DNA of 48,063 nt. Origin: a virus. The translations under genes were made by a program, and so were the position numbers. Numbering within the stretch: the first letter of the stretch is position 1; each line of letters begins with the position of its first letter. A model generated the notes under the pieces. The model ran no database searches. It was not told the DNA's origin and saw only the letters and a program-made list of their open reading frames with translations. The DNA is taken from IMG/VR virus record IMGVR_UViG_3300025728_000005, positions 1 through 48,063 of that record; one strand, given 5' to 3'. Positions 3,172-48,063 of the stretch are shown here, in pieces.

Positions 3172-4272
3172 ATGAAAAGAATGACCATCGACGAGGCCTT
3201 CAAGCCTACGTCGCGAACACTCACGCCCGAGGGTTTCCTCTGCGTGAAAGGGGTTGCAGCGCGCACCGGGGTCTATCAGTACCTGTCGAGCGAACTGGAC
3301 CTCGACGGCCCTGAGCGGATCGTCAATGTCTACCGCCCTCCCGGCCAAGTGTTCGACCCTGAGTCGATGGCAACCTTCGCCGACAAGGACGTGACCAACG
3401 ACCACCCGGACGATCTGGTCGACTCGACCACCTTCAAGGAAGTGTCGGTCGGCCATGTGCGCGGCGTCGAGCAGGACGGCGACAACTTGGTGGTCGACCT
3501 GATCATCAAGGACCAGACCGCCATCGACGACATCGACTCTGGCAAGGCCGAGCTTTCCCCCGGCTACCTGGCCGAGTACGTCGAAGCCCCCGGCATCGCC
3601 CCCGATGGCACCGCCTACGAATACGAGCAGCGTGACATCCAGATCAACCACGTCGCCGTTGTAGAAGCAGCGCGAGGCGGCAAGGTCGCCCGCATTTTTG
3701 ACCACAAACCGAAAGGTGTACCAATGGCACAACGGAAAGTCTTTTTAGACTCCAAGAAAAGCCGCTCCATCATTCTCGACGAAGAGGCAGCTTCGGTAGT
3801 CGAAGACGCCGTTGCAGCGCTTCAGAAGTTCGCGGATGAAGAGTCGGATCGCGCAGACAAGGCTGAAGCCACCAAGGACGAAGCCGAAGAGAAGCTGGAA
3901 GAGGCCAAGAAGGAAACTTCTGACGCCGCGATCGGCGCTCGCGTGAAGTCCACCCTCGACACCATCGCCCTCGCCGCCAAGGTAGTGAAGTCGTTCGACG
4001 CGAAGGGCCTGGTGTCCCCGCTCGAAATCAAGCGCGCCGCCATGGCTCAGCTGAAGCCGACCCGCGACTGGGCTGGCAAGTCCGAAGCCTACGTGCTGGC
4101 TGCCTTCGATGCCGCTGCTGATGAGGCAGAGGAAAGCGACGAGGACGACGAGGACAAGAAGAAGGTCGAGGACAGCCTGAAGCGCTTCGCTGACGACGCC
4201 GCCAAGCGTGGCATGAAGCCGACCAACGACGGCACTGCCGCTTACAACGATTTCCTGCGAGGTAAAAAGTAA
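3172..4272 (+). CDS. DUF2213 protein, probable prohead protease/scaffold
   Basis: This 366-residue protein has an N-terminal DUF2213 domain (about residues 1-190), seen in phages in the place of the head maturation protease, and a long acidic Lys/Glu-rich C-terminal half that should form a coiled coil, as scaffolding regions do. ATG 3172 was chosen because it follows the MuF stop by two bases and has an AAGGG ribosome site; the frame is open to 3115, but that part overlaps MuF. Role inferred: shaping and maturation of the prohead. It overlaps the next start by one base. Confidence 0.8.
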   Translation: MKRMTIDEAFKPTSRTLTPEGFLCVKGVAARTGVYQYLSSELDLDGPERIVNVYRPPGQVFDPESMATFADKDVTNDHPDDLVDSTTFKEVSVGHVRGVEQDGDNLVVDLIIKDQTAIDDIDSGKAELSPGYLAEYVEAPGIAPDGTAYEYEQRDIQINHVAVVEAARGGKVARIFDHKPKGVPMAQRKVFLDSKKSRSIILDEEAASVVEDAVAALQKFADEESDRADKAEATKDEAEEKLEEAKKETSDAAIGARVKSTLDTIALAAKVVKSFDAKGLVSPLEIKRAAMAQLKPTRDWAGKSEAYVLAAFDAAADEAEESDEDDEDKKKVEDSLKRFADDAAKRGMKPTNDGTAAYNDFLRGKK

Positions 4273-4784
4273 TGGCGACTGCATTCGATACCTTCAACCA
4301 GTACGCCAGCACGGCATTCGAGGGTCAAACCAATGACGACTCGATGTTCGACGATATCACCTACGTCGTCGAATCTGCGGCTGTTCCATTTGGTCGAGCA
4401 GTGATCCAGGGTGTCGCTGACCGAGGCGGCAAGCTGCCAGCCACCGCTGCCGCAGTCATCATCGGTTTGTCTGTGCGTCAAACGATCGGCATCGGTGGCG
4501 GTTACCTGACCGGTGACGGCAACGCCAACGCCAACCCAGTCGGCTCTCGCGCTGTCGGCCAAGAGTCGACAGCGCGGGCATACGGCCGCGCATGGGTGAA
4601 AACCCTCGGCGGTTCTACGCCAGGCCAGCAGGTCTATGTCGTGCCGAACACCGGTGAGCTCACCAACGCCGCTACCTCGGGGAATCTCCTGTGGACGGGC
4701 GCGACTTTCAAAACGACCGCCGCCGCCAACGGCATGGCAGTTATCCAAGTTCGCGGCCAAGCGCTTGCAACTCTGGTCGCTTAA
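4272..4784 (+). CDS. Structural cement / head decoration protein (Gp24-like)
   Basis: This protein has 170 residues. It is Gly/Ala/Thr-rich, with the pattern of phage structural cement proteins: a polar N-terminus, a central PFGRAVIQG segment and a C-terminal beta-rich part. It lies directly upstream of the major capsid gene, the usual place for a decoration protein that binds between capsomers and stabilises the shell. Its start overlaps the stop of the DUF2213 gene (TAATG). Confidence 0.8.
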   Translation: MATAFDTFNQYASTAFEGQTNDDSMFDDITYVVESAAVPFGRAVIQGVADRGGKLPATAAAVIIGLSVRQTIGIGGGYLTGDGNANANPVGSRAVGQESTARAYGRAWVKTLGGSTPGQQVYVVPNTGELTNAATSGNLLWTGATFKTTAAANGMAVIQVRGQALATLVA

Positions 4785-4796
4785 GGAGAAACGAAT

Positions 4797-5783
4797 ATGC
4801 CCCGCATGACAATGGACGCCCAAGTCCAGGCTGCACTTGGCTTCTACACCGGCCAACTGACCTACATCGAGCAGGAAGTACTGCGCCAGCCGTACCCTGA
4901 AATCCGCTATCCATCCATCCTGAACGTCGACACCACGGCGCCGGACTGGATCGAAAGCGTCGGCTTCAAAACGCTCGATTTCCGCGGTAAGCCGCAGATT
5001 CTCGGCGACAAGTCCAAAGATTACCCAATGGCAGAGATGGCGTCTGCGCTGGGTGCGGTGGACGTGCACACCTTCTCGCTGGGCTACTCCTACACCTTGG
5101 CCGAACTGGGCAAGGCGATGGAAATGGAGCGCAGCCAAGGCTACGGCGCCTCGATCAACTATCTGGCCGAGAAGCCAGCCGGTGTTCGCATGCTGACCGA
5201 GCAGTGGCTCGACAGCACCGCCTTCTCCGGCGATCCATCGGTTCCGTCTCTGTCTGCTGGCGGCCTGATCGGCTATCCAGGCGTGCCGGTGGTTGCTACC
5301 GGCACCCTTCTGGGCGGTTCGAACCAGACCATTGCGCAGATCATCGCCGGCACTGACCCTAACGTCGTGTCTCAGTCGCTGCTGAACCTGTTCAACAACG
5401 GCCGCCTGCGAGTTCAGATCACGCAGACCAACAACACCTTCCGTCCAACGCACGTGCTGCTGCCATCGGTGCAGTTTGGCCAGATCGAGAGCTATCGCAT
5501 CCCGAACACCTCGGATACGTTGCTGAGCTATCTGGAGCGCGTCACCAAGCTGACGTTTGAACCGATCCTGCAATTGGCGGGTGCTGGCGCGGGCGGCGTG
5601 GATCGCATGATGTTCTACACCAAGAACGATCAGTACGCGAAGTTCCATATGCCGCTGCCGTTCATGCTGAATGCTCCAATCGTGAGCGCTGGCGGCCTGC
5701 AATTCGAATCGGCTGGCCTGGTTCGTATCGCTGGCACCGAACTGCGCGTGCCGAAGTCCCACCTGTACGTCGACGGTGTCTAA
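4797..5783 (+). CDS. Major capsid protein, DUF2184 family
   Basis: This is the main shell protein, 328 residues, of the DUF2184 type, which has an HK97-like fold. Recognisable parts are the N-terminal LGFYTGQLTYIEQEV, the central DVHTFSLGYSYTLAEL and the C-terminal FESAGLVRIAGTELRVPK. An AAGGAGAAACG ribosome site precedes the ATG, in keeping with high expression. Cement gene, capsid gene and connector genes follow in normal order. Confidence 0.9.
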   Translation: MPRMTMDAQVQAALGFYTGQLTYIEQEVLRQPYPEIRYPSILNVDTTAPDWIESVGFKTLDFRGKPQILGDKSKDYPMAEMASALGAVDVHTFSLGYSYTLAELGKAMEMERSQGYGASINYLAEKPAGVRMLTEQWLDSTAFSGDPSVPSLSAGGLIGYPGVPVVATGTLLGGSNQTIAQIIAGTDPNVVSQSLLNLFNNGRLRVQITQTNNTFRPTHVLLPSVQFGQIESYRIPNTSDTLLSYLERVTKLTFEPILQLAGAGAGGVDRMMFYTKNDQYAKFHMPLPFMLNAPIVSAGGLQFESAGLVRIAGTELRVPKSHLYVDGV

Positions 5784-33696: not shown

Positions 33697-34791
33697 TCAG
33701 AAGTTGATGGTGATGTTCGGCACTTCACCGCGGTAGATTTTCAGAACGAGCGCCTTGGCCAGTTCTTCGGTGACGTTCATCGACATGATTGCCAGCTTCG
33801 CCTCGCCCATGATTTTCGACTTGTGCGCCGTATCGGCTGCGCGGGCGTTCTGCTGGCGGACAATCTCGGCGGCGGCATCGTCTGCGCGCTTCTGCTCATC
33901 CAGACGCGCCTGCTCGACTGCCTGCTCTTGCCGGGTTGCAGCCTCCTTGCGCTCACGTTCGGCGCGCTGCTCGGCCTCTTCCTGGTCGCGCTTTGCCTGC
34001 TCAGCCTTGCGCTCAGACTCGGCCGCAGCCAGCTTCAGGTCGTTCTCGCGCTTGGCTGCTGCCGCCTGCTCGTCCTTCACCCGCTGCGCTTCTGCATCCC
34101 GCTCGCGCTGCGCCTTCTGTTCCGCCTCGATGCGCGCCTTCTCGGCAGCCTCGTGGGCGATTCGTTGCTCGCGGTCTTTCTGCTCCTGCGCCTCTTTCTC
34201 GGCGCGCAGCCTGATCAGTTCGGCCTGTTCCGACTCGTACTGCTCCTGGTCGGCCAGGGCCTTGCGCAGAATCACCAAGGCGGCAGCCTTTGCCCGGTGC
34301 GCGTCGGCCTCGAACTCTTCCAGCTCCTGGTTGATCTCCAGACTGTCCAGGTCCTGGACCTTGGCGCCGATCAGTGCCGCGGTCATGCCGGCGGTGTCGG
34401 TGTTTTCGATGTGCGCGATCACGGCCTTGTGCGCAGCGACCCGGGCTTCCTCTTTCTCCTCCCACTCATTCAGTGGGCGGCGAACCTGCTCCTGCAGCGA
34501 CTCCAGGGTTTCGCGCATTCGCTTGCGCTCGGCGTCGATCAGCTTCGGGACTTCCTTCAGCTCGGCGACCAGCTTTTTGCCGGCGTCGTCCAGGGCCACT
34601 TTCGACTTCGCGACCTTGTGGGCGATCGAGGCGATGGCGGCGCGACCCTTGGCGGTGCTGGTGTCCGGCACGAACGACATAACCTCGTCGCGGATCTTTT
34701 GTAGCCATGGCTCCAGGCCGTTCGGCGCGCTGTACACGGCCAGCGCTGTTTTTTTCGGTGGCACGGTGGCCAATTCAGTAGTTGCAGACAT
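33697..34791 (-). CDS. Long coiled-coil protein of the recombination operon
   Basis: This 364-residue protein has a helical N-terminal domain (about 1-130) resembling phage DUF1351-type proteins and a long Ala/Glu/Lys/Arg/Gln coiled coil (about 130-325), with a short C-terminal domain ending in VLKIYRGEVPNITINF. Comparable genes lie beside ERF and SSB in many phages; the frequent TolA-like label reflects composition only. Probably an accessory to recombination. Confidence 0.75.
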   Translation of the reverse strand: MSATTELATVPPKKTALAVYSAPNGLEPWLQKIRDEVMSFVPDTSTAKGRAAIASIAHKVAKSKVALDDAGKKLVAELKEVPKLIDAERKRMRETLESLQEQVRRPLNEWEEKEEARVAAHKAVIAHIENTDTAGMTAALIGAKVQDLDSLEINQELEEFEADAHRAKAAALVILRKALADQEQYESEQAELIRLRAEKEAQEQKDREQRIAHEAAEKARIEAEQKAQRERDAEAQRVKDEQAAAAKRENDLKLAAAESERKAEQAKRDQEEAEQRAERERKEAATRQEQAVEQARLDEQKRADDAAAEIVRQQNARAADTAHKSKIMGEAKLAIMSMNVTEELAKALVLKIYRGEVPNITINF

Positions 34792-38922: not shown

Positions 38923-39741
38923 ATGAACATTGCTCAAAATTGCAATACCTCCGTTCGTCTTCTCAAAGGTGAACATCACGCGCCACGTTTCGGCGACAAG
39001 CAAAACGTAGCGCCGACTATGTCTTCGCGGGAAATCGCCGATCTGGTCGAGGCTCGCCACAACGATGTTCTCACCACCATTGAGCGGTTGTTCACCAAAG
39101 GCCTTTTACGATCTGCTCGCAAAAGCCGCCGCGAATCCACTGGCGGGCGCCCAATCGATGTTTACGACCTGAGCGAGCGAGATACCCACCTGGTTGTCGC
39201 CGGGTATAGCGACGAGCACCGCGCAAAGGTTATTGACCGGTGGCAGGAGCTGGAGGTTGTTACGGACAAGCCAGCCTTCGATATTTCCGCAGCCCTAAGC
39301 GATCCGAAAACCCTTCTGGCCCTGCTCACTGAAAACGTGACCAAGGTCGTCGCACTCGAAGCCGACAATAGCGAGCTTTCGCAAGAAAACCTGATGCTTG
39401 AACAGAAGGTCGTCGCTGATGCCCCGAAAGTGGATTTCTTCAACGGAGTCATAACATCGCATGGCGTTCATGCTGTCCGAGATATCGCTCAAGCCATCGG
39501 CACCGGCCAGAAGCGACTGTTCGAGTTCATGCGTAAGCATCGCTGGATTGACCGGTTCAACACGCCATATCAGGCCAAAGTTGAGGCTGGATATCTGGTC
39601 GCCGATCCGCATATCTACAAAGACCCGGACACCGGAGAGCGCAAGACAAAGTTTACCTGCCGAGTGACTGGTAAGGGTTTTGCCAAGCTCCAGGCGTTGT
39701 GGGCCAAGCGCGATACCGATCTGCTCGGGGGTGATGTATGA
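38923..39741 (+). CDS. Rha-family regulator with KilAC (antirepressor) domain
   Basis: This 272-residue protein has an N-terminal Rha domain (about 25-115: MSSREIADLVEARHNDVLTTIERL...GRPIDVYDLSERDTHLVVAGY) and a C-terminal phage antirepressor KilAC domain (about 160-265: GVHAVRDIAQAIGTGQKRLFEFMRKHRWI). A coiled stretch joins them. Such proteins act as antirepressors or regulators of early genes. The start is ATG 38923, in a long leader with operator 5. Confidence 0.85.
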   Translation: MNIAQNCNTSVRLLKGEHHAPRFGDKQNVAPTMSSREIADLVEARHNDVLTTIERLFTKGLLRSARKSRRESTGGRPIDVYDLSERDTHLVVAGYSDEHRAKVIDRWQELEVVTDKPAFDISAALSDPKTLLALLTENVTKVVALEADNSELSQENLMLEQKVVADAPKVDFFNGVITSHGVHAVRDIAQAIGTGQKRLFEFMRKHRWIDRFNTPYQAKVEAGYLVADPHIYKDPDTGERKTKFTCRVTGKGFAKLQALWAKRDTDLLGGDV

Positions 39742-46179: not shown

Positions 46180-46385
46180 GCAAGTGGGTGGCGCGGGTCC
46201 GCTGCAAATGCGGTCATGCATATTCAGGGGAAATATTCAGTGCATCTGACTTTCGGATAATCCAAGTATGCCCAACCTGCGGGAGCAAGGAGGAATGGCG
46301 CGACACGGTAGAGCGCTGGGTATCAACCTCGAGGTGGAATAGTCCGCGCACATGGGGTACTGGCTATTGGGAGGTTAAGGCATGA
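46176..46385 (+). CDS. Zinc-ribbon protein
   Basis: This 69-residue protein has RCKCGHAYSG and VCPTCGSKEEW, a C-x-C...C-x2-C zinc ribbon, then a Trp-rich end. ATGA overlap with the nuclease. May bind nucleic acid or RNA polymerase; function unknown. Confidence 0.65.
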   Translation: MSKWVARVRCKCGHAYSGEIFSASDFRIIQVCPTCGSKEEWRDTVERWVSTSRWNSPRTWGTGYWEVKA

Positions 46386-46921
46386 AATATCTAAACATCG
46401 TCACAGCAGTGGTCCGGGCACTATCGACCGACAACATGGGCGGCGGCATGAACTTCGAGCCTCGGGTGCAGGACACCAAGCTCAAGGGGGAGATCACTGG
46501 CAAGGATGACCAGCTGCTGCACGACAGCATGATCCGGGCTCGCCTGCATGCCACGCTGGCCCCGGAACACTGGGAGATCCTGAAGGCCAAGTTCTCACCG
46601 GACCTGAACCATAAGCGCGAATCCATTCGGGCGGTGCGTACCCGAGTGAAGACGCCTGCGCCGGAACGGTTCAGGGATGCCGCGGTGCTGACCTGGGCCA
46701 TGCCGAAACTGCCGGGGAAGGATGGGAAGCGCTCAGCTACCACGCTGCCGGCCGAATGGTACGAAACTGATCGCTGGTGTGACGATCCTGTGCCAGAGAG
46801 AACCAAGCAGCGCTGGAGGCGTGACATTTCCATCGGGTTGGAGGCGGAAGTGAACAAGGCGCTAGCCATTGCTCAGGAAGCGCTGGAGCCGCTGGGAATC
46901 TTCCGCGAACAGGTAGCGTGA
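46382..46921 (+). CDS. Last early gene, possible late-transcription regulator
   Basis: This 179-residue protein has no family I can name with certainty. Mostly helical, basic in the middle (FSPDLNHKRESIRAVRTRVK), with WYETDRWCDDPVPERTKQRWRRDI near the end, which looks like a helix-turn-helix. It is the final gene of the rightward early operon, next to the late promoter, leader and terminator: the place of Q in lambda. A late antiterminator or activator role is inferred from place only. Confidence 0.6.
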   Translation: MKYLNIVTAVVRALSTDNMGGGMNFEPRVQDTKLKGEITGKDDQLLHDSMIRARLHATLAPEHWEILKAKFSPDLNHKRESIRAVRTRVKTPAPERFRDAAVLTWAMPKLPGKDGKRSATTLPAEWYETDRWCDDPVPERTKQRWRRDISIGLEAEVNKALAIAQEALEPLGIFREQVA

Positions 46922-46982
46922 TAAATATATTTGCTGGCCCATTGCCAAGACTGGCGCTGTGGCGTATCGTATTGTCATCCTG

Positions 46983-47012
46983 TTGCAATTGCGTTCAGGG
47001 CTTGAATATATA
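46983..47012 (+). promoter_or_regulatory. Probable late promoter
   Basis: TTGCAA (46983-46988), 18 bases, then TATATA (47007-47012). Transcription would start near 47019, inside operator 7. This is the only clear promoter before the lysis and structural genes. Confidence 0.65.
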
Positions 47013-47013
47013 G

Positions 47014-47031
47014 AGTCCATGATTAAGGACT
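47014..47031. promoter_or_regulatory. Operator site 7 (late promoter)
   Basis: AGTCCATGATTAAGGACT has both arms perfect. It begins one base after the -10, exactly as at the phaZ promoter, so a bound protein would cover the transcription start. Confidence 0.75.
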
Positions 47032-47035
47032 GCGA

Positions 47036-47205
47036 GTTTCAACCAGCGGCCAGAGTTGCCCGACTAGTTCCCTCCTTCGAGTCGGGGTATCTGGATACGG
47101 TTTAGCCGGTTAGTACCGTAACATCGCAAAACACCGGCAGCCTGCGAGCCCTACTAACGCTTACTCAGGGGGTTGTGCAGGCGGGCAGACTGGGAAGACA
47201 GTCAT
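47036..47205 (+). ncRNA. Structured leader RNA with predicted pseudoknot
   Basis: Downstream of the late promoter, four stem-loops follow each other: 47059-47065/47080-47086 within 47050-47054/47090-47094; 47096-47101/47115-47120; 47141-47145/47177-47181 with inner 47149-47152/47167-47170; and 47188-47192/47199-47203. The loop of the second stem contains GCCGGT (47105-47110), which can pair with ACCGGC (47133-47138), an H-type pseudoknot. No convincing gene lies here (one 32-codon frame at 47204 runs into the tRNA). It may be an antitermination element, a regulatory RNA or a tRNA leader. Confidence 0.58.
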
Positions 47206-47280
47206 GAATCAACCAGCGCCAAGACGCATGACGAGGACAGAAAGTCCGCCATGCCATCCCGCACATGCGGAACTAATTCT

Positions 47281-47357
47281 GGCGAGTTCCACTGTCTGGT
47301 GATGTGGCAAGGCTCATAACCTTGATCAGGTCGGTTCGATCCCGACACTCGCTACCA
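47281..47357 (+). tRNA. tRNA with anticodon CAU (Met, or Ile2)
   Basis: A full 77-nt cloverleaf with encoded CCA: acceptor GGCGAGT/ACTCGCT (first pair G-U), a D-arm with loop GG, anticodon stem CAAGG/CCTTG, loop CTCATAA with CAT at 47315-47317, variable region ATCAG, and T-arm GTCGG-TTCGATC-CCGAC, then A and CCA. CAU may be elongator Met or, if lysidine-modified, Ile for AUA codons. It is transcribed from the late promoter just before a terminator. Confidence 0.9.
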
Positions 47358-47362
47358 ATTTC

Positions 47363-47390
47363 AAAGCCTCGCCATCGTGCGGGGCTTTTT
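47363..47390 (+). terminator. Strong terminator after the tRNA
   Basis: AAGCCTCGC pairs with GCGGGGCTT (one G-U pair) around CATCGT and is followed by TTTTT. It separates leader and tRNA from the holin and all structural genes, so late expression needs read-through, like tR' in lambda. Confidence 0.85.
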
Positions 47391-47489
47391 CAATTTCGGC
47401 ACCCACGCAACCGTCCTTGCCCCGAGCGGACGCGATATGCGCGGAGTGCCGGACCTATCACACAGCCCGATGCGCGGGAACCACGAGAC

Positions 47490-47819
47490 ATGAAAATGCC
47501 CGAGAAGAATCCCGATACCTGGCTGATAGGCATGGCCTGGCTCAGCCAGAACGCCCCGATGTTCTATGCAGCGCTCCTCTCGTGCTGGATTGCCTTCTTA
47601 CGCGTCATCTACGGGGGCGGACGCCTGCGACAAGCCTTCCTTGAGTCGTGCCTGTGTGGCGCGATCACAGCCGGGGCATTCCCCTTGCTTGCCTATTTCA
47701 ATTTGCCGTCAAGCATGGCGGCAGCACTTGGCGCCTTCATTGGCACCCTCGGCATGAAGAAAGTGGCCGCATTGGCCGAGCGATGCACTGACATTCAAAT
47801 TTCAAGGCGAAAGGGATGA
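47490..47819 (+). CDS. Holin, lambda/phage_holin_3 family
   Basis: This 109-residue protein starts at ATG 47490; the frame is open to 47304, but that part overlaps tRNA and terminator. MPEKNPDTWLIGMAWLSQNAPMF and RVIYGGGRLRQAFLESCLCGAITAG are family hallmarks, with three hydrophobic segments (about 22-38, 53-74 and 78-93) and a basic end. It opens the inner membrane for the endolysin at 22436. Its stop overlaps the Rz start (ATGA). Confidence 0.82.
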   Translation: MKMPEKNPDTWLIGMAWLSQNAPMFYAALLSCWIAFLRVIYGGGRLRQAFLESCLCGAITAGAFPLLAYFNLPSSMAAALGAFIGTLGMKKVAALAERCTDIQISRRKG

Positions 47820-48063
47820 ACATGAGAGCGATCGCCGCAGCAATCATCATCGCTCTGGTCGCCATGCTGCTCATTGGCGTCCAGCAGTATCGCGTCACCA
47901 CCTTGCGCGCCGAAATGCAGATCGAAACCAAGAGCAAGGAAGACGCTATTGCGGCGAACGCCGAAAGCCAGGCGACGATCACCACCCTGCAAGCCGAAGC
48001 CAAACGCAACGCTGCCTACAGCGCCGACCTGGCCAAACGCATCAAGGCCAGCGAAGACAAAGC
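47816..48063 (+). CDS. Rz: Rz-like i-spanin, 5' part (continues at base 1 of the circle)
   Basis: ATG 47816 overlaps the holin stop. The N-terminal signal anchor (AIAAAIIIALVAMLLIGVQQY) is followed by the charged periplasmic helix. The frame runs off the window end; bases 47937-48063 equal bases 1-127, and the rest of the gene is at 128-263. Confidence 0.87.
   Translation, partial: MNMRAIAAAIIIALVAMLLIGVQQYRVTTLRAEMQIETKSKEDAIAANAESQATITTLQAEAKRNAAYSADLAKRIKASEDK
47937..48063. repeat. Terminal duplication, right copy (assembly overlap)
   Basis: This is the exact copy of bases 1-127, inside the Rz gene. Removing one copy gives a circle of 47,936 bases. Confidence 0.9.

Follow-up and report, generated by a model that had tools for sequence, protein, structure and literature searches.

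The predicted late transcript of this lambda-like phage carries within its leader a member of the Proteo-phage-1 RNA family (Rfam RF03044). In the window, by which we mean the whole stretch of 48,063 nucleotides analysed here, positions 47044-47142 match the full model (1-82) with 59.3 bits, the curated gathering cut-off of the family being 42 bits; this RNA, like all features of the late region described below, lies on the plus strand. Proteo-phage-1 is a catalogued phage RNA family that is functionally unexplained, and no function for it was found in the sources read. Judging from comparison with related sequences, the leader is a real, conserved and pseudoknotted member of this family. The finding is a member of a known RNA family, the context and structure of which are extended here. 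We lean towards the view that this modular phage RNA is a small RNA which acts in trans and is made from a late promoter of the Q/AlpA type, and that it is not a read-through device.

Structure of the leader RNA

The RF03044 stretch comprises hairpin P1 (47050-47094), hairpin P2 (47096-47120) and a pseudoknot in which GCCGGT at 47105-47110 pairs exactly with ACCGGC at 47133-47138. The alignment to RF03044 places both nested stems of the consensus, P1 and P2, in the window. They are followed by hairpin P3 (47140-47182), which lies mostly beyond the Rfam model, and by hairpin P5 (47188-47203), with the sequence GACUG-GGAAGA-CAGUC. An earlier note on this DNA had described four hairpins and this same pseudoknot, and both descriptions hold, the hairpins being P1, P2, P3 and P5. 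A further small hairpin (AGUCC/GGACU, 47014-47031) precedes the RNA in the leader; its arms are kept in the three closest relatives (L256-L258, whose regulator gene product is 89% identical), while its loop varies.

The Rfam consensus line is nested and 82 nt long, whereas in the relatives collected here P3, P4 and P5 are added, the pseudoknot covaries, and a terminator is often present. The extended RNA in these relatives consists of P1, P2 with the pseudoknot, P3, an optional P4, and P5 with a GAAAGA hexaloop, often with a terminator on the 3' side. In the window the P1 arm is longer, P4 is missing, and a tRNA stands ahead of the terminator. The predicted folding energy is unexceptional, both for 47044-47206 (z -1.05) and for 47036-47400 (z -1.38). 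As stability alone is not exceptional, the case for an RNA structure rests on comparison, that is, on the Rfam match, on covariation and on paired changes. Matches to isrJ and tRNA-Sec in the window scored below their cut-offs and were rejected.

Covariation of the paired elements

Viral contigs were scanned for the pseudoknot with its third pair forced off the usual bases, which gave 38 loci with one match each. Pseudoknot complementarity was kept in 17 of the 20 matches that lie next to a P2 stem with five or more pairs, compared with 2 of the 18 that do not; the types recovered were GCCGG/CCGGC, GCTGG/CCAGC, GCGGG/CCCGC and GCAGG/CCTGC. Covariation in relatives had been proposed in the earlier note as one check on this pairing, and the paired bases indeed turn out to be both conserved and covarying. 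The hairpins vary in a similar manner: P2 occurs in 29 stem versions among 145 core matches that have it, and 97 of these 145 carry a P5 with a G(A/G)(A/G)AGA hexaloop on 16 distinct stems (shuffled control, 1/145).

In an alignment of 31 late-type sequences, 16 of 38 pairs are changed on both sides, against a mean of 6.7 in shuffled alignments, and no shuffle reached as high a value; six of the pairs changed in this way belong to helix 4, the counterpart of P3. The pseudoknot shows no paired change in this alignment, partly because the search pattern itself fixed the pseudoknot, and its covariation rests on the forced-pair scan together with a few divergent copies (PAE2, PMG1). Closer to the window, P2 and P5 of L256-L258 differ by paired changes, among them a compensatory change in P2 of L256 and a different, paired P5 stem in L257. 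Taken together, these sequence comparisons find compensatory changes in each of the hairpins P2 to P5 as well as in the pseudoknot, which shows that the structure of the RNA is under selection.

The regulator gene and the late promoter

The gene upstream of the leader (46382-46921) encodes a protein of 179 amino acids that belongs to phrog_3412 (E 1e-50). It falls into no Pfam or NCBIfam family, and by sequence it has no relative in the PDB, AlpA and Q included. Its AlphaFold model (pLDDT 81) finds AlpA (7xya/7xyb) as best Foldseek match, with probability 1.00 but modest E-values of 0.02-0.03; in VIA-align the Z-scores are 11.5/10.9 for AlpA, 8.6/7.2 for lambda Q and 4.9 for Q21, while the next, unrelated row reaches 3.5. 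No function has been listed for phrog_3412 so far; the modelled fold suggests a family of AlpA/Q-like antiterminators of Pseudomonas phages. Gp71 of Pseudomonas phage MR13 (L010), a phrog_3412 homologue, is annotated as 'putative prepilin peptidase'; given its kinship to the AlpA/Q-like regulator, this looks like a misannotation. In Pseudomonas phage PS-1, an int-alpA RNA (RF02996; L012:3057-3122) sits directly behind the phrog_3412 gene, in the place taken by the late promoter region in other phages.

Behind the regulator gene we predict a late promoter at 46942-46970, with -35 TTGCCA, a 17-bp spacer and -10 TATCGT. It is the sole promoter match in 46900-47500, and its position relative to the regulator gene is the same in relatives. 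The spacer contains a direct repeat of period 8, TGGCG-N3-TGGCG (TGGCG at 46952-46956 and 46960-46964). Such period-8 repeats, with at least 6 of 7 matches, are found in the spacers of 19 of 21 distinct relatives compared with 6% of shuffles; they have lineage-specific sequences, and the repeat in the window is weaker than those of the relatives (5/7 matches). The earlier note had also seen a promoter with an operator, and a predicted promoter and an operator-like direct repeat do exist, but the promoter had been misplaced: the one that it put near 47000 has a -35 (TTGCAA) which L256-L258 do not keep, while they do keep 46942-46970, where the repeat forms part of the spacer.

Directly downstream lies a conserved initially transcribed region (GTCATCCTGTTGCAATTGCG, 46974-46993) that matches the motif CCATCCTGTC-N4-TTGCG of the relatives. 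This motif occurs in 61 of the 67 distinct regions scanned downstream of the regulator gene; on the opposite strand, 9 of 80 have it. Because both the promoter and the transcribed region from about 46974 are conserved, transcription is predicted to start near 46977, about 60 nt before position 47036, where the earlier note had begun.

The tRNA, the terminator and the genes downstream

A complete tRNA(CAU), annotated by ARAGORN as tRNA-Met, follows at 47281-47357, and an intrinsic terminator with a 10-bp stem and a T run at 47363-47388, ahead of the lysis genes; the earlier note had read both correctly. What does not carry over to relatives is the fusion of the leader to the tRNA. L256-L258 have the RNA and lack the tRNA, and the terminator of L256 is nearly identical to that of the window. 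Elsewhere, the tRNA stands before the RNA in L124, L143, L144, L167 and L184 and after it in the window and L120, and other loci have none. By sequence, then, the tRNA is an optional neighbour of the RNA. An apparent tRNA neighbour in L114 was discounted, as the ARAGORN tRNA reads as opposite strand in the printed sequence.

Terminators are a common feature of these regions. Of 96 late-type loci, 54 have one ahead of the RNA, an arrangement absent from the window, and 47 have one behind it, at +140 to +230 (control stretch, 0/94). A strict scan found a terminator behind the regulator gene in at least 25 of 67 regions, which is a lower bound.

The first lysis gene behind the leader encodes a holin/anti-holin (47490-47819; PF05106, E 5e-22; phrog_126). 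The window carries an exact terminal direct repeat of 127 bases (1-127 identical to 47937-48063), so that the contig probably represents a complete, circular assembly (about 47.9 kb) in which a spanin gene spans the junction. An Ant-like anti-repressor gene (38923-39738, plus strand; phrog_63) is in keeping with a temperate phage; among the window ORFs scanned, none was recognised as an integrase.

Distribution and genomic context

The regulator protein, and not the RNA, served to find 80 loci, of which 49 records were searched with RF03044. Matches were present in 19 of the 49; the other 30 had none, some of them possibly being fragments. In 18 of the 19 matching records the RNA lies on the strand of the regulator, 114-1522 nt behind its gene. 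The remaining one (L329) has a Q-like late region lacking the RNA, and an early-type copy about 12 kb away on the other strand. A second strong copy was found in none of the 50 records searched whole, and the window likewise has one copy, behind the late promoter. Of the weaker extra matches, the six strongest were not accepted as second copies, since by appearance they are probably coding sequence.

The core formed by P2 and the pseudoknot also occurs outside late regions. PS-1 has it in its leftward early region, as do PAE2 and PMG1 in a divergent form, and across phages it adjoins genes for a Mu-like transposase, DNA helicase, DNA polymerase, tail/terminase proteins, an HNH endonuclease and lysis proteins. 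In L199, the start of a phrog_1376 gene (4244-5299) lies 105 nt behind the RNA core; the window has a phrog_1376 gene as well (33700-34791, minus strand), and the function of this family of 352-364 aa is not assigned. No annotated phage turned up when three non-late cores were used as queries in DNA searches. Three loci of the genome scan (L004, L005, L006) were set aside since cmscan reported no RF03044 match for them, and a class-wide search of genomes around L005 yielded a single match, which fell below the threshold.

A proposal for the function of the RNA

We suggest the following sequence of events. The AlpA/Q-type antiterminator would act at the predicted late promoter behind its gene, and RNA polymerase would start at about 46977 and transcribe first a short leader and then the pseudoknotted RNA (47044 to roughly 47206), the tRNA and the terminator. 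Without the antiterminator, most transcripts would end at 47363-47388, giving an RNA of roughly 410-420 nt; with it, polymerase would continue into the holin and spanin genes. A cut by RNase P at the 5' end of the tRNA (47281) may then free the structured RNA, which would act in trans as an optional, movable small RNA on a host or phage target that is probably widespread. The single copy, the optional presence and the indifference to neighbouring genes, all of them evident from the comparisons, are why we infer that the RNA works in trans; it would presumably be stable. We regard action as a free small RNA as more likely than a switch that controls the downstream genes. Among the three roles that the earlier note had offered, a processed regulatory RNA is accordingly the best supported, the processing itself being our inference. 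A riboregulator of one particular gene, another of the three, is disfavoured because the RNA core adjoins unrelated genes. More tentatively, the P2-pseudoknot core (AGCNGG..AGTG...AACNCCNGC) may be a mobile trans-acting module of unrelated phages, able to sit in any operon, with a host component that is widely conserved as its target.

It is conceivable, though in our opinion rather unlikely, that the RNA is a general cis-acting leader that never becomes a free small RNA and acts on its own transcript, by protecting it, by positioning tRNA processing or by affecting downstream expression. In the window the RNA does precede a tRNA and lysis genes on the predicted transcript, in several contexts the next ORF begins within about 200 nt downstream of the RNA, and many non-late copies lie shortly ahead of a coding gene, as roles in RNA stability, translation or processing would have it. 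However, the downstream genes are unrelated between contexts, a terminator separates the RNA from them in about half of the late-type loci, the closest relatives have no tRNA to be processed, and the 30 of 49 regulator-bearing records with no RNA match also argue against a leader of this kind.

The third role offered by the earlier note, a put-like element, seems improbable to us. The nascent RNA would in this case bind RNA polymerase and cause it to ignore downstream terminators, as in phage HK022, whose put RNAs are about 70 nt long, consist of two stem-loops with a triplex, require no phage protein, and are encoded in two copies, putL and putR, behind the early promoters (PMC9378689). Like putL and putR, the window RNA is a structured RNA that comes early in a long phage transcript, and in the window a terminator follows it; the early-type copies in PS-1, PAE2 and PMG1 are situated within the leftward early region. 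In over half of the late-type relatives (the 54 of 96 noted above) a terminator nevertheless comes before the RNA, and the phage possesses an AlpA/Q-like protein together with a promoter of that type, both of which speak against a put-like role; so does the fact that the RNA is optional and has one strong copy per record, in contrast to the pair of HK022.

That the RNA is an idle, functionless spacer by-product of the late promoter appears very improbable: such a promoter is expected to fire and then terminate without the antiterminator, and the folding energy is unexceptional, but the covariation of the hairpins and the pseudoknot described above contradicts it.

Comparison with known systems

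The AlpA/Q-type promoter context, the multi-hairpin extension, the covariation of the pseudoknot and the unrelated neighbours make the function of Proteo-phage-1 a testable question, and known systems offer two further points of comparison. The first is StxS, a stable small RNA that Stx phages transcribe from the interval between PR' and tR' and that RNase E processes (PMC7873438). Like StxS, the window RNA is encoded between a Q-type late promoter (predicted here at 46942-46970) and the first terminator (47363-47388), and since StxS is made there, a segment of this kind can yield a stable small RNA. StxS differs in that it is described as Hfq-binding and base-pairing, whereas Proteo-phage-1 is compact, pseudoknotted and, in most late-type relatives, located behind a terminator.

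The second comparison is with the AlpA unit of P. aeruginosa and the Q units of phages 21 and lambda, which share with the window the fold of a regulator encoded next to the promoter and a downstream terminator (PMC7969949, PMC9371919, PMC6606751). They have a binding element between -35 and -10, for which the period-8 spacer repeats, strong in the relatives and weaker in the window, are a candidate counterpart: these repeats are similar to the direct-repeat element used by Q of phage 21 (PMC6606751) and, in position, to the AlpA element (PMC7969949). Units of this type also have a -10-like pause element after the start site, to which the conserved initially transcribed motif may correspond. 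What sets phrog_3412 apart from AlpA and Q is that it has no PDB match by sequence and that the repeats, spaced at a period of 8, differ in sequence from lineage to lineage.
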